This document shows positions 37,417 through 48,278 of a stretch of 64,000 nt of DNA, one piece after another. The notes beneath the pieces are model-generated. The model was given only the letters and a program-made list of their open reading frames with translations. It searched no databases and was not told the origin of the DNA. Source of the DNA: Aliarcobacter cibarius (GTDB taxonomy: Bacteria; Campylobacterota; Campylobacteria; Campylobacterales; Arcobacteraceae); the NCBI RefSeq assembly GCF_013372265.1, contig NZ_CP054051.1, positions 248,001-312,000 on the forward strand, read 5' to 3'. Within the stretch, counting starts at the first letter, position 1, and each line of letters begins with the position of its first letter. The position numbers and the translations under genes are program-made.

Positions 37417-38289
37417 CTAAAGTAAAAAATATAAAGCTAATGGCATATAAATAATTGTAAACAGATTTCCAATAGCAACTATTGAAGCTACCATACTAGA
37501 ATCTTTGTTATATTTTTCTGCCAAAATTGCATTTAAAACAGCAGTTGGAAGTAATCCAAACAAAATTAAAAGTTTTTGTTGAAGTTCACTATATTCAAAA
37601 AGATATATAGCTAAAAATGCCATAATTAATCCAGAAAGAGGACATAAAATAGCACCTATAATTCCTATTTTTATATTTTCGAGTTTTACTGTTGATAGTC
37701 TAACTCCAAGAGCAAATAAAATTAAAGGAATAGCAACTTGTGATAATAGTTCAAAAGTTACATTAATTGTTGAAGGAAAAGATATATTAAAATAATTAAA
37801 AATTAATCCAAAACATGTTGCAATTATTACTGGATTTTTGAACATAGCTTTTATATCTATTTTCCCTCCATACATCATTTCAGCAACTGTAAATTGACCA
37901 ATAACTTGAACTAAAGATAAAGCAATAAACAAAGCCATAGCTTCTTGTCCAAAAGATAGTAGAGCAAGAGGTAGCCCTAAATTTATTGAGTTATTAAACA
38001 TCATAGCTGGTAAAAAACTATTAATATCTATTTTCATTAATTTAATAAATGGATACAAAATTAAACCTGAACCGAAAACTATAATAACTGCTCCCAAAGA
38101 AAAATATCCTAACACAGAGATATTGGGAAGTTTTGAAGAAATTGAGTAGAAAATTAAAAAAGGGATAAAAATATCTAAATTGATTTTATTTATTGAATCT
38201 ATGTCAATTTTTACTCTCTTTGCATAAAATATTCCTATTAAAACTATAATAAAAACTGGAAAAAGTATTTCAATTATTTTGTATATCAA
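37417..38289 (-). CDS. AEC-family transporter (auxin efflux carrier type)
   Basis: 290 residues with about ten membrane helices in two halves. The segment NINLGLPL-like NSINLGLPLALLSFG, in the broken helix, and GLLPTAVLNAILA near the C-terminus mark the family. These proteins move organic acids and similar compounds. Its start overlaps the end of the truncated reductase gene (ATGA). In this place it could export or import an acid of the meta pathway. Confidence 0.83.
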   Translation of the reverse strand: MIYKIIEILFPVFIIVLIGIFYAKRVKIDIDSINKINLDIFIPFLIFYSISSKLPNISVLGYFSLGAVIIVFGSGLILYPFIKLMKIDINSFLPAMMFNNSINLGLPLALLSFGQEAMALFIALSLVQVIGQFTVAEMMYGGKIDIKAMFKNPVIIATCFGLIFNYFNISFPSTINVTFELLSQVAIPLILFALGVRLSTVKLENIKIGIIGAILCPLSGLIMAFLAIYLFEYSELQQKLLILFGLLPTAVLNAILAEKYNKDSSMVASIVAIGNLFTIIYMPLALYFLL

Positions 38290-38771
38290 AATATAGCCTT
38301 AAATTTATTAAAAATTATTTTGAGATTAAATTTTAGCTTAAAAAAAGCAAGACTTATAATATTATTGCTGATTTTTATTATAAGCCTTACCAAAAAGGGG
38401 TTTTCGTCTAATTCGCTAGAAAGGTTTTTTTTACTATCAACTTCATTTTGAAAAGAGATAATATAAATATGGTTTTTTACTTTAGTAAAAAGGTCGTTGA
38501 AGTTATTTACTAAAGATTTAGTTGAAGTTGATTTAGTGGTCAATGAAACAGCATTAAAGAATAGTGTGTTAAATCTTTTGATTTCGTCATTTGAATAGGA
38601 GAAAATTTTTTCTTCAAAAAAGAAATCAGGGTGCTGCAACTTCAACTTGTTTTGCTGTAAAGACTCTAAGTACTTTCCTCTTGCTACAAAATTTAAATCA
38701 GGACCTAAACTGATCAACTTTATGCCAAAATAAGAGTTTACACCACCAGCACCCAAAATAAAAAATCTCAT
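38286..38771 (-). pseudogene. Truncated ketopantoate-reductase-like (PanE/ApbA) gene
   Basis: 161 residues, about half the family length. The N-terminal NADP-binding domain is recognisable (FFILGAGGVNSYFGIKLI, VARGKYLESL, then ISFQNEVDSKKNL). After about residue 120 the sequence decays into a Lys/Phe-rich tail and stops, so the catalytic C-terminal domain is missing. It might still be translated, because the next gene overlaps its stop. A relic is more likely than an active enzyme. Confidence 0.7.
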
Positions 38772-38783
38772 ATTCTGCCTTTA

Positions 38784-39605
38784 TTATTTCTCCGAAAAGA
38801 AATTTAACAATAGATTATTAAATCTATCTTTATGCTCTATTTGTGTCCAATGTCCACATTGTCCAAATATATGCAATTGTGATTTTAAAATAAGTTGATT
38901 TAATCTTATAGAATTTTGTACAGGTATTACTTTATCTTCTCTTCCATGAATAATTAAAACATCTTTATCTATCTTTTTAATATCTTGTTCACAGCTAGTC
39001 ATCATATCTATTCCATTTTGTCTTGGAGCTGGAAACATTGAAGAAAATGATTCATGAAAACCAGGTCTAATACTTGCTTCATATCTTAGTTTTGCCAAAT
39101 CATCTGTTACAATACTTCTATCATAAGCAAAAATATCAAGCAACTCTTTCATATTTTCAATACTTGGATTATATCCCCATGCTTTATCAAGTCCGTATGT
39201 TAAATCAAAATATACTCCAACAGCACCCATTAAAACAACTTTATTAAATCTTTGCGGATATTTTATAGTTAAAGCAATTGCTAAACCACCTCCAAAAGAG
39301 TTTCCAACTAGGTTTGTTTTTTCAATTCCTAAAGCATCCATTAAATCAATAATTTGTTGTACCCAAACATCCATATTATAAGTAATACCTTCTGGTCTAT
39401 CTGTATAACCAAATCCTACCATATCTGGAGCTATTACTCTAAATTTCTCTGCTAAAACTGGCATTGATCCTCTCCAGTTTGCATAAGCTGATACTCCAGG
39501 TCCTGAACCATGAATAAACATTACAGGTTCACCTTGTCCTAATTCATGATAATTTGTATTAAACTTACCTGTTCTTATATTCTTCGCTATCTCTGGATTT
39601 GACAT
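38784..39605 (-). CDS. dmpD: 2-hydroxymuconic semialdehyde hydrolase
   Basis: 273 residues of the alpha/beta-hydrolase fold. The oxyanion motif is HGSGPGVSAYANWR, the nucleophile Ser is in GNSFGGGLA (about 108), the Asp in HGREDKVIP and the His in GHWTQIEH. This is the pattern of DmpD/XylF, which splits ring-cleavage products of methylcatechols (ketones) or 2-hydroxymuconic semialdehyde. It gives the hydrolytic branch next to the dehydrogenase branch (dmpC, 4-oxalocrotonate tautomerase, dmpH). Confidence 0.92.
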   Translation of the reverse strand: MSNPEIAKNIRTGKFNTNYHELGQGEPVMFIHGSGPGVSAYANWRGSMPVLAEKFRVIAPDMVGFGYTDRPEGITYNMDVWVQQIIDLMDALGIEKTNLVGNSFGGGLAIALTIKYPQRFNKVVLMGAVGVYFDLTYGLDKAWGYNPSIENMKELLDIFAYDRSIVTDDLAKLRYEASIRPGFHESFSSMFPAPRQNGIDMMTSCEQDIKKIDKDVLIIHGREDKVIPVQNSIRLNQLILKSQLHIFGQCGHWTQIEHKDRFNNLLLNFFSEK

Positions 39606-39633
39606 CTTTTTTTCCTTTATTTTTAATAAATTC

Positions 39634-39825
39634 TTATTTTCCTAACTTTTTAGCGCTTTTTCCACCTATACCAAAATGCTGTTTTGGCATTTCATTTATT
39701 ATAACTCTTACAGTTTCAAGTGGTGCATCTAAAGATTCCGCAATTGCTAAAGATACTTTTTCTATAAGTTTCTCTTTTTTCTCATCACTTCTTCCCTCAA
39801 CAATATTTATTGTAGCTATTGGCAT
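39634..39825 (-). CDS. dmpI: 4-oxalocrotonate tautomerase
   Basis: 63 residues. After removal of Met, the catalytic Pro1 is exposed. Arg11, Arg39 and the aromatic residue Phe50 are exactly at the positions of known 4-OT enzymes. It interconverts enol and keto 4-oxalocrotonate for the decarboxylase DmpH, and works as a hexamer in the cytoplasm. AAGGAG precedes the start, but part of it is caught in a hairpin (39835-39856). A palindromic insertion lies between it and dmpH. Confidence 0.93.
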
Positions 39826-39834
39826 GAATTCTCC

Positions 39835-39960
39835 TTAAAAATTATCCAATTTTTAAGGGACCTATTTCATATCTAACTTCTTTTAACAAGATGGCAAAGC
39901 CATCTTTAAAGAAGCAAACTCTAAAGAGAACAACGAGTTGTTCTTAAAATAGTCCCTATT
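39835..39960 (-). repeat. Palindromic, multi-hairpin intergenic element
   Basis: An outer inverted repeat (GGGACCTATTT at 39857-39867 with AAATAGTCCC near 39947-39956) encloses two strong hairpins: AAGATGGC-AAA-GCCATCTT (39888-39906), extended by CTTCTTT/AAAGAAG, and AGAACAAC-GA-GTTGTTCT (39927-39944). A third, TTAAAAATT/AATTTTTAA (39835-39856), touches the ribosome site of the tautomerase gene. It looks like an ERIC- or MITE-like palindromic unit inserted inside the operon. Confidence 0.65.
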
Positions 39961-39961
39961 T

Positions 39962-40750
39962 TTATATAAATTTAAATGATAAAGTTCCTAAATCTTGAAA
40001 CTTAACTGTTACATTATCACCTTTTTTTACACTAACAGCAGCTGTAATTGCACCTGAAAGAATAAATGTTCCTGCTTTTAAAACCTCTCCCCTCTCAGCT
40101 AACATATTAGCAAGCATAGCTATTGCAGTTGCAGGATGCCCAAGAACAGCAGCTCCAGCCCCTACTTCTACTACTTCACCATTTATTTCCATTACAACAC
40201 CAAGAGTTTTTAAATCTAAATCTTTAACATCTCTCATTCTTCCACCAGTTACATATCTTGAACTTGATGAATTATCAGCAATAACAGATTTTAAGTCAAA
40301 TTTGAAATCTTTATATCTTGAGTCAATAATTTCAACAGCAGGCATTACAAAATCTGTTGCAGCTAAAACATCACCAATATGACAACCAGGTCCACTTAAA
40401 TCACTTTTTAAAACAAAAGCAATTTCTGCTTCAACTTTTGGATGAATTAACTCATCAATTTTTATACAAGATCCATCACCAAAACTAAAATAATCAGCTA
40501 AATATCCATAACAAGGATCAGAAACACCCATTTGTTTCATTTTAGCTTGAGATGTAAGTCCCATTTTCATACCTACAATTTTGTGCCCTCTTGCCTCTTT
40601 CGCAGCTCTTGCAGTCCATTGAATATCATAGGCATCTTTATATGTCATTTCTGGATAATCTTCAGTTATTTTAGTGATTTCATAAGCTTCTAACTCAGCA
40701 TCCTCACAATGCTTTGCTAATTTTTCAATTGTTGCTCTATCTAAACTCAT
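39962..40750 (-). CDS. dmpH: 4-oxalocrotonate decarboxylase
   Basis: 262 residues of the hydratase/decarboxylase family. The sequence IADNSSSSRYVTGGRM marks the decarboxylase branch (DmpH/XylI), as opposed to TVADNASCGYIVFGG of the hydratase DmpE in the same operon. Metal-binding residues lie in HPKVEAEIAFVLK. It turns 4-oxalocrotonate into 2-hydroxypenta-2,4-dienoate and normally works in complex with DmpE. Its ATG overlaps the aldolase stop (TAATG). Confidence 0.92.
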   Translation of the reverse strand: MSLDRATIEKLAKHCEDAELEAYEITKITEDYPEMTYKDAYDIQWTARAAKEARGHKIVGMKMGLTSQAKMKQMGVSDPCYGYLADYFSFGDGSCIKIDELIHPKVEAEIAFVLKSDLSGPGCHIGDVLAATDFVMPAVEIIDSRYKDFKFDLKSVIADNSSSSRYVTGGRMRDVKDLDLKTLGVVMEINGEVVEVGAGAAVLGHPATAIAMLANMLAERGEVLKAGTFILSGAITAAVSVKKGDNVTVKFQDLGTLSFKFI

Positions 40751-46770: not shown

Positions 46771-48278
46771 AACTCAACTTTCGCACATAAAACCTAATTG
46801 TTTTTTAGTGTAAACTCTGAGCATATGAATGATTTGTTCTAAATCTTTATTTCTCTTGACAATTTCTTGAGATTCTATTATTTGTTCTAGGATTTTTACA
46901 AATAATTCCATAGATATTGCTAGAGTTTCAAGCTGGCATTCTAAATCTCTAAAAAGATTACCTAATGTTTGGGGTTCATTATTTATGCGATTTATATAAC
47001 TTGTGAGATTATAAGCTAAAAATGATAGAGTTATTCTAGCAATAATTGCTTCATAGATTCTATTTTCTTCTTTTCCAAATTGAAAATACTCTCTTAAATC
47101 TTTATATCCTTGTTCTATGTTCCATCTTTTTTTATAAGTATTGATAATTTCAATATCAGATAAATTTGTATTTGTTGATATTATTGGAATAAGATTATCT
47201 TTGGTTTTAATAAATACAATTTTTATTCTTCCAAGTGTTTTATGTGTAGTTGTAGTTGAAACATAAGTGTATTTAATAGAGTTATAGTTACTAAGTTTAG
47301 ATGTTTTTTGATTATTTACTTGATTATAAATAGACTCAAGTGTTTTAAATTTACCTGTAAATTGCCAAATTCTATTTGATTTTGATAATCTTGCAATTAC
47401 ATCAATACCATTTTCTTTTACTTCATTTATAAAATTTGGTTTAGCATACCAACTATCAACTAGTAAATAATCTACATATATTCCAGATTTTAAAACTCTT
47501 TGAATCATATGTAGAGCTAAAATATTTTTACCATCATTACCTTCAACTCTTCTTTTATAAGCATTACTTTTATGATGAAAATAGTTTTCATTAACATTTA
47601 CAATTTGATTTTTGTTGTAGTTAATAGAAAAATCTAACATCATATCAGTATAACAATCACTATAATTAAGTGATACAATATTCAAACCTTTTACTACTCT
47701 TTTTTCTTTATTACTCCAAAGATTTTTACAACTACCTTCTATAAATTTACCTCTTTTAATTTCAACAGTATCATCTATAATCAATACTTTTGTATCAGTT
47801 GTTTTTTGAAGTTTATGTAATTTACAAATTAGTTTTACAGATGTCAGTAATAGTAATTTTCTCCAGTTATATCGATTATCTTTTAAAAGTCTGTAATATA
47901 CATCTTTTTTCTTGTGCTTGCACTCTCTTTGAGATAACTATCATTACTATATTTCATAAAACTAGAAATTTTTCTATTTATTACAAACATATACAAAAAA
48001 TGTAAAATAACTAGATATGGAGATTTACCAATATCTCTTTTTATAAAATTACTCTGTTTTAAAATAGAACTAAAATTTATATCTATTAAAACTAATAATA
48101 TTGGATTCTTTAACACACTATTCATAGCAGTTTGGATAAAATTGTCAAGTCCCATAGATTTACCTTTAATATAGTTGATTGTGGTAATGAAATTATATCC
48201 AAAAGTGTCTATTTATGGGATTTAGCAAAGCTTTTATATATAAGAAATTGATGATTTTTTATGTGCGAAAGTTGAGTT
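46771..48278 (-). mobile_element. IS4-family insertion sequence with 22-bp inverted ends
   Basis: Terminal inverted repeats begin AACTCAACTTTCGCACAT at both ends (46771-46792 and complement at 48257-48278), a perfect 22-bp match. The flanking AAAT on both sides may be a target duplication. About 1.5 kb with one transposase gene in two frames. It lies between the meta-cleavage promoter region and the monooxygenase block. A fragment of the same element lies at 3290-3383. Confidence 0.85.
46774..48155 (-). CDS. IS4-family transposase, probably made by -1 frameshift
   Basis: The protein is split between frames. The first frame starts at 48155 (MGLDNFIQTAMNSVL) and reaches RKK at 47904; the second continues from DVYYRLLKDNRYNW to the stop at 46774. 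The junction is A-AAA-AAG (47910-47904), in the right phase for a -1 slip, and a slip there joins the frames into exactly 460 codons. The second part has the DDE residues in LIIDDTVEIKRG and LLVDSWYAKP and a Y-R-E signature in YKKRWNIEQGYKD. An ordinary one-base deletion is the alternative explanation. Confidence 0.8.

Follow-up and report, generated by a model that had tools for sequence, protein, structure and literature searches.

The meta-cleavage (dmp) operon in the analysed DNA of Aliarcobacter cibarius (a stretch of 64,000 nucleotides, C1:248001-312000 of its own genome, G000, referred to here as the window) contains 136 bases between the stop codon of dmpH and the start codon of dmpI, read on the minus strand. 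This raises the question of what kind of sequence occupies this position, how it came to lie within an operon, and what it may mean for translation of the gene that follows.

The dmpH/dmpI spacer of the window

The gene identities are based on Pfam and on the annotated homologous operon of the Arcobacter cloacae plasmid pACLO. According to the ORF coordinates, the remaining dmp genes overlap or are separated by 9–18 bp, with the exception of the 28-bp gap between the tautomerase and hydrolase genes (39606-39633); the statement of the first-pass annotation that all other gaps are shorter than 25 bp is thus correct for all but this one. Several further features of the region are worth recording. 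A DDE_Tnp_1 transposase gene (46774-47784) is located just past the promoter-proximal end of the operon. The ketopantoate reductase-like ORF at 38286-38771 (ApbA, 161 aa) is about half as long as the homologous gene of the A. cloacae plasmid operon (939 bp), so that it is probably a broken gene. The same plasmid operon carries a gene for an MsnO8-family LLM oxidoreductase (L047, 8549-9571) between dmpI and the hydrolase gene, which is missing from the window.

The outer inverted repeat, the two strong hairpins and the AT-rich stem over the ribosome-binding site of the tautomerase gene, all described previously, were found in the sequence (39826-39961). On the minus strand the outer repeat reads AGGGAC-TATTT / AAATAGGTCCCT, with a one-base bulge. 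RNA folding, which had been proposed as a check, placed the transcribed strand (-36.8 kcal/mol) far below the mean of shuffled sequences (-24.2; z -3.81), and none of the 200 shuffles folded as well. The span originally assigned, 39835-39960, is close to that of the element, whose proper limits, defined by the match to a covariance model (R1, see below), are given in Table 1 together with its parts. An A-rich spacer separates P2 from P3; the latter is AT-rich and its 3' arm contains the Shine-Dalgarno sequence (SD) AAGGAG. In this copy the loop of P3 reads GGAT where GGGAC is usual, which leaves GGTCCC without its usual partner.

Table 1. Features of the dmpH/dmpI spacer and its flanking genes (window positions)
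Feature	Position	Strand	Basis or remark
dmpH, 2-oxo-3-hexenedioate decarboxylase	39962..40750	-	PF01557; upstream of the element; name from the Arcobacter cloacae plasmid homologue
AAATAGGGACTATTTT, apparently the leftover 3' hairpin of a tandem copy that once lay upstream	39946..39961	-	its GGGAC pairs with GGTCCC, giving the outer inverted repeat
Element proper, with the SD at its end (116 positions of model R1)	39832..39947	-	G000:C1:287832-287947, minus strand; E 1.9e-23, 125 bits
P1 hairpin AGAACAACTCGTTGTTCT	39927..39944	-	double changes in 7/7 pairs (111 copies); 97.8% of cells paired
Conserved unpaired linker CTTTAGAGTTT	39916..39926	-	alignments of copies
P2: outer stem GCTTCTTTA/TTAAAAGAAGT and inner hairpin AAGATGGCTTTGCCATCTT	39876..39915	-	helices 2 and 3: 14/16 pairs double-changed
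Core named in the first-pass annotation (inner hairpin of P2)	39888-39906		
GGTCCC, 5' strand of the predicted alternative (SD-freeing) helix	39857..39862	-	covariation of the alternative helix; sequence
P3, CCTTAAAAATT-GGAT-AATTTTTAAGG, predicted SD-covering hairpin	39833..39858	-	helix 4: 11/11 pairs double-changed, 93.0% of cells paired; fold
AAGGAG, SD of the tautomerase gene, common to the gene and the element end	39831..39836	-	sequence; the right end of the 120 copies reads AAGGA almost invariably
dmpI, 2-hydroxymuconate tautomerase	39634..39825	-	PF01361 and homologue annotation; downstream of the element

The outer inverted repeat, on which emphasis had been placed, proved not to be a feature of the family: it links the 3' module of the element to positions 39946-39961, which appear to be left over from a second copy further upstream. 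The letters of AAATAGGGACTATTTT are those of the 3' hairpin of another copy (L062), tandem arrays occur in G056 and G045, and solo remnants are found at the dmpH/dmpI site of G057 and G053.

A default repeat finder reported nothing within 39700-40100. Within the window the core AAGATGGCAAAGCCATCTT is present a single time; one further match is the same site read on the opposite strand with 3 mismatches (0.03 expected by chance). Comparison with Rfam gave no match up to E 1 for window positions 39500-40300, and for 10 loci 16S rRNA was the only match.

Copies and insertion sites in the Arcobacteraceae

In the own genome (2.34 Mb, one contig) both blastn and model R1 detected a single copy, which gives no sign of movement in this genome. 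The blastn hits that followed were AT-rich, 14-32 nt long and had E values of 0.012 or worse, and AAATAGGGACTATTTT, when up to 2 mismatches were allowed, turned up 16 times, versus 10 times for its reversed control, i.e. no further copies rose above noise. The search for additional copies of the core, suggested earlier, was therefore fruitless in this genome and productive in the relatives. A blastn search with the 136-base query gave matches (E<=0.01) in 68 of 104 Arcobacteraceae genomes, spanning query positions ~16-130, from P1 through the SD. Thirty copies were read and aligned, and 25 of them (leaving out L060, L073, L081, L083 and L088, which are partial, degenerate or carry an insertion) formed alignment A1, from which R1 was built. 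The model identified the element in 81 of the 104 genomes and 16 of the 20 genera, with at least 528 matches (E<=0.001, E values being rough; a lower bound, summed genome by genome with at most 35 candidates scored in each).

When 150 candidates were scored, ten genomes, which were picked for high or instructive copy number and contiguity and are thus a non-random set, were seen to carry 5–27 copies each (136 in total). The 121 matches with E<=3.8e-7 were used, and DNA was available for 120 of them (that of G054:C2:26059-26147 was missing); the 15 weaker ones were left out. In a sample of the order Campylobacterales, divided according to the listed kinship, matches with E<=1e-5 were present in 39 of 47 Arcobacteraceae versus 8 of 351 other genomes. 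A 20-base linker pattern was found in 34 DNA stretches among 84,980 species, and those that also matched R1 were confined to loci titled Arcobacter, Aliarcobacter, Halarcobacter, Poseidonibacter, Arcobacteraceae, Campylobacteraceae or Campylobacterales, plus two from unplaced bacteria, L205 and L223 (the latter a weak match, 33.9 bits). A broad spread beyond the Campylobacterota was rejected, since R1 had no match in the pattern-bearing loci with the titles Microcystis, Vibrio and Caenarcanales; carriage by phages was likewise rejected, as none of the 8 viral contigs with the linker pattern matched R1. Four loci (L088, L341, L319, L353) represent a subfamily with an extra insert, TTTCTCAAAGAGAGTGCAAGCACAAG, between the linker and P2.

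The dmpH/dmpI site was compared in 23 genomes. According to the model it is filled in 9 of them (partially in G053 and G059), while 10 have a short gap (7-14 nt, with a bare SD) and no element; remnants are present in G057 and G090, and in two genomes another gene occupies the site. The filled and empty states are illustrated by TATAA-[element]-AAGGAGAATTCATG in G000 versus TATAAGGAGAATAAATG in G009. A second copy precedes dmpF in G011, where five relatives have only TATAAAGGA or a similar sequence. The ispH site is filled in 8 of 30 genomes (compare TTTATATTAAGGATAAATATG in G099 with TTTATATTAAGAAC...AATTTTTAAGGATGAAAAGATG in G094), and its copies are decayed in G003, G012, G019, G020 and G035. 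In the empty/filled pairs at dmpI, dmpF and ispH the element is inserted immediately 5' of AAGGA. These pairs are compatible with an insertion that took place at (T)AAGGA and has TAAG(G)A on either side, where the letters of element and target are indistinguishable. Copies that are 93.0% alike over 114 nt precede different genes in G045.

Near-identical units (99-100%) are also arranged in tandem arrays with a period of ~112-119 nt (L120 and L121 in G045, L132 in G056).

The dmpH/dmpI element is thus one copy of an Arcobacteraceae-wide family of structured dispersed repeats, the 3' end of which lies on the SD of the next gene. The earlier suggestion that it was probably inserted is supported by the relatives, in which the same gene pair has a gap of 7-14 nt with a bare SD, and by homologous copies before many unrelated genes. 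The finding named as one that would refute this, a unique sequence kept in place in all relatives, is not what the genomes contain, and the patchy occupation of sites points to a dispersed, SD-anchored repeat and not to an operon-specific RNA. A unique spacer or stability element of this operon could draw on the single copy in the own genome; it is refuted by the 528 or more family matches, the diverse downstream genes and the empty site in 10 of 23 relatives, and we regard it as having practically no chance of being correct.

Position on the Shine-Dalgarno sequence, structure and predicted effect on translation

Of the 120 copies from the ten genomes, 110 are followed on the same strand, 2-14 nt past their last base, by a start codon (belonging to an ORF of at least 50 codons), whereas on the opposite side and the other strand a start codon lay within 14 nt in 3 copies. 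A co-directional frame ends within 250 nt upstream of 112 of 120 copies, mostly within 20 nt of the element start, and its stop codon is often the TAA of the element's own TAAG. Seven of the 10 copies without a start codon at the above distance can be accounted for: five belong to tandem arrays, in which they stand upstream of another copy, one lies before an ispH frame that is interrupted by a TAG, and one seemingly reflects overshoot of the model. AAGGA is nearly invariant at the right end of the 120 copies; aAGGa is described as the usual SD of these bacteria (PMC3847290).

The element is a conserved structure of ~115 nt, composed of P1, a conserved linker, P2, an A-rich spacer and a GGTCCC/SD hairpin. 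In A1, a sequence-based alignment, 26 of 34 pairs are changed on both sides and 94.2% of cells pair, compared with 80.1% in shuffled controls and 44-57% in structures slid along the alignment. In an alignment of 111 copies, which was fitted to the model and so leans towards the structure, 32 of 34 pairs are double-changed and 93.3% of cells are paired (67.1% when shuffled; 0/500). The sequences of P1 and of the inner P2 stem vary freely with pairing kept, and the linker CTTTAGRGTTTG is nearly constant across copies.

The 3' module, GGTCCC-TTAAAAATT-GGGAC-AATTTTTAAGGA, can form two covarying, mutually exclusive helices, one of which would hide the SD and the other free it. The SD-hiding hairpin is present in 99 of 120 copies, and in 78 of these 99 GGTCCC and GGGAC can form a helix of at least 5 bp (when loops were swapped between copies in 500 trials, the mean was 48.4 and the maximum 58). 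The alternative helix keeps its pairing through changes to GGTTCC/GGAACC and GGTTACC/GGTAACC. A left extension was counted in 18 of 120 copies with a loose pattern, a figure that includes some false ones. Two other interpretations of the module were considered. A CsrA-type site, to which the GGA often held by the P3 loop might point, was rejected, as GGTTACC/GGTAACC and other copies lose GGA and keep pairing; an H-type pseudoknot in place of two exclusive helices seems unlikely, since it would be left with zero linker nucleotides.

The predicted energies of the two states are similar: the state with the hidden SD has a median advantage of 1.1 kcal/mol (quartiles -3.1 and 0), as calculated for the isolated 36-nt module with a loosely enforced "SD must pair" setting. 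In context, the predicted probability that the SD is unpaired is 0.36 for the element (n 111) versus 0.48 for other SDs of the same loci (n 69; p 0.002). A translational switch in the 3' module is therefore plausible as a model, although that the element commonly acts as a conditional switch seems doubtful. The earlier idea that an SD stem alters the output of tautomerase has become stronger with the covariation. In the window copy, the loop of which lacks GGGAC, the hidden state of the SD is expected to prevail, unless the GGGAC in the upstream remnant captures GGTCCC, and the likeliest consequence would be lower tautomerase synthesis relative to dmpH. These functional statements are derived from sequence and predicted folds.

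The genes downstream of the copies share no common theme. Their 116 proteins fall into 86 clusters, so that the conserved aptamer tied to one gene class that marks a riboswitch was not found, and by reading of the sequences they include ispH, gatC, hisA, hisH, lepA, hypA, rubredoxin, dnaK, rpsB and dmpF. This diversity bears on the possibility that the element is a true cis-regulatory RNA (a riboswitch-, thermometer- or protein-binding leader) kept for regulating the downstream genes, its spread being incidental. The strong covariation, the conserved unpaired linker, the fixed orientation and distance to the start codon, and an SD held within a predicted bistable hairpin would all suit such a leader. 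So would the dnaK copies (L190 in G001, L196 in G003, L182 in G056), which have been kept in the same place in species of two genera, are 89-93% alike, and have a P2 of the GGTTCTTAG...CTAAAGAACA type; they are possibly retained for regulation and, among all copies, are the strongest candidates for retention in a functional role. Against this stand the absence of a shared theme, same-genus neighbours that lack the element at the same gene, a related core located away from genes in other families, and the common decay of ispH copies, which shows that the structure is not kept everywhere and argues against a necessary regulatory role at each site. On balance we consider a leader of this kind unlikely.

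The preferred reading, to which we assign a probability of about 0.7, is that of a tolerated, SD-anchored mobile dispersed repeat, whose ordinary effect would be to weaken coupling and to lower initiation at the next gene through P3. The comparison of sites suggests that the element is or was mobile, and the location of copies fits either targeting of SDs or survival at SDs only. The element would enter at (A)AAGGA, the SD motif, which in many cases shares letters with the stop codon of the preceding gene (TAAGGA). Since both ends are TAAG(G)A-like, neither the stop codon upstream nor the SD downstream would be lost, which would make insertion nearly harmless and allow persistence inside operons. 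In the mRNA the 3' module might then be bistable, with CCTTAAAAATT:AATTTTTAAGG hiding the SD or GGTCCC:GGGAC freeing it, and the next gene might receive its own, mostly lower, translation rate in place of close coupling to the preceding gene. A more far-reaching version, in which the element would be a mobile translation-control cassette that homes to operon SDs, spares stop codon and SD, installs a bistable SD switch and so brings unrelated genes across the genome under one translational signal (the dnaK copies being kept for use), is conceivable as a model, and we give it rather low odds.

Core relatives, mobility and comparison with known systems

Other Campylobacterales have a shorter relative of the element (P1, CTTTAGTGTTTGCTACTTTAG, P2). 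G145 and G158 (L251-L280), two small genomes from a different family within this order, contain many copies of a dispersed core repeat, GGGGTACCCC...CTTTAGTGTTTGCTACTTTAG..., located in long intergenic regions in both orientations and not at SDs. Given such core relatives away from SDs in other families, it is the SD-bearing 3' module that seems to tie the Arcobacteraceae branch to SDs.

In G241, a relative of the P1-linker-P2 core is placed directly 5' of 16S rRNA in three rRNA loci (L292, L304, L264). This location, and the resemblance of TTCTTTA in the linker/P2 region to the boxA consensus, might suggest a boxB-boxA (NusB-S10) antitermination signal copied from an rRNA leader. TTCTTTA is, however, paired in a covarying stem, and the 16S leaders of all six Arcobacteraceae inspected (G000, G003, G013, G029, G033, G056) are without the core and have their own, separate TCTTTGTAAAC/TCTTTGA-like motif instead, for which reason this explanation was rejected as hardly tenable.

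The mode of movement was approached through Y1_Tnp (PF01797), the subject of a genome-wide search. Hairpins near both ends, the absence of terminal inverted repeats and an orientation fixed to a short target motif would be expected of a REP/IS200-IS605-type element moved by a Y1 (HUH) transposase via single-stranded DNA, with the SD complement TCCTT as its target; judging by the sequence and by the general features of this family, CCTT at the foot of the 3' hairpin could also pair with AAGG in a guide-like manner. Y1_Tnp genes, however, were detected in just 7 of 18 genomes, being absent from G000 and from the copy-rich G045, G058, G032 and G043, and no element lay within 1.5 kb of a Y1 gene at any of 10 Y1 loci. 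This makes the Y1 route quite improbable, and the search disclosed no linked transposase or other mobiliser. Recombination after natural DNA uptake would be an alternative mode of movement for the SD-anchored repeat favoured here.

In the open-licence literature we found no description of this Arcobacteraceae repeat. The intergenic regions of Arcobacter sp. L have been analysed, and in that account most of the Arcobacter-confined ones were left unnamed (PMC6429828); its supplement could contain the motif of the element. The structured repeat family of the Arcobacteraceae is thus apparently undescribed so far. If the above reading is true, most Arcobacteraceae harbour an unnamed repeat family that favours the ribosome-binding site, the place where an operon is most sensitive, and yet does not destroy it. 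The family would provide a clear example of how insertion site and RNA fold can meet at translation initiation, and would offer a natural route to the uncoupling of neighbouring genes. Filled and empty sites in sister species would amount to hundreds of natural experiments on SD sequestration, and masking or annotating the element would help gene finding and RNA-seq studies in Arcobacteraceae.

ERIC elements have a palindromic RNA fold and are intergenic, within transcription units, and are not known to be tied to SDs. Judged by these descriptions, the Arcobacteraceae element resembles ERIC in its palindromic fold, its intergenic location inside transcription units and its size, ERIC (IRU) elements being given as 127 bp (PMC2759123). 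The MITE Chunjie of Geobacter uraniireducens is likewise described as short, non-coding, intergenic, present in many copies and able to sit in an operon without breaking it (PMC10969869), all of which applies to the present element. MITEs in that description have terminal inverted and direct repeats and an IS parent (PMC10969869); in contrast, the Arcobacteraceae element has no terminal inverted repeats in its family consensus (copies start with TAAG(A/G) and end with TTTAAGGA, which is a direct and not an inverted arrangement), a parent was not found in the Y1_Tnp search, and the element ends on an SD in one orientation. The label "ERIC- or MITE-like" given to the spacer earlier therefore applies loosely, to a short, non-coding, dispersed, intergenic and palindromic unit, and fails for the termini and, as far as Y1_Tnp was searched, for a linked transposase. 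It is a dispersed repeat, with up to 27 copies per genome (one in the own genome) and occupation of 9/23 and 8/30 sites.

REP sequences, according to the description consulted, are intergenic hairpin repeats of 20-40 bp with a GTAG or CGTC tag, presumed mobile and associated with RAYT transposases (PMC3733652). Intergenic hairpins, presumed mobility, and tandem and dimer arrangements are common to both, whereas the present unit has 115 nt, its copies are not tracked by Y1 genes, and none of the 10 Y1 loci has a copy nearby. The element is thus not a classical MITE or REP, and is probably not a classical ERIC. With the TAACTGA direct repeats of Beggiatoaceae, described as lying mostly just 5' of start codons in forward orientation, also in operons, with a suggested role in translation (PMC4679880), it shares dispersal, a place before start codons, one orientation and occurrence inside operons; these heptamers are unstructured and overlap or replace the SD, in contrast to a structured element of 115 nt that keeps the SD and pairs it. 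Finally, an SD held in a hairpin with a competing helix recalls SD-sequestering RNA thermometers and translational riboswitches, from which the element differs in being outside Rfam, in having no shared gene class, and in its dispersed and patchy occurrence.
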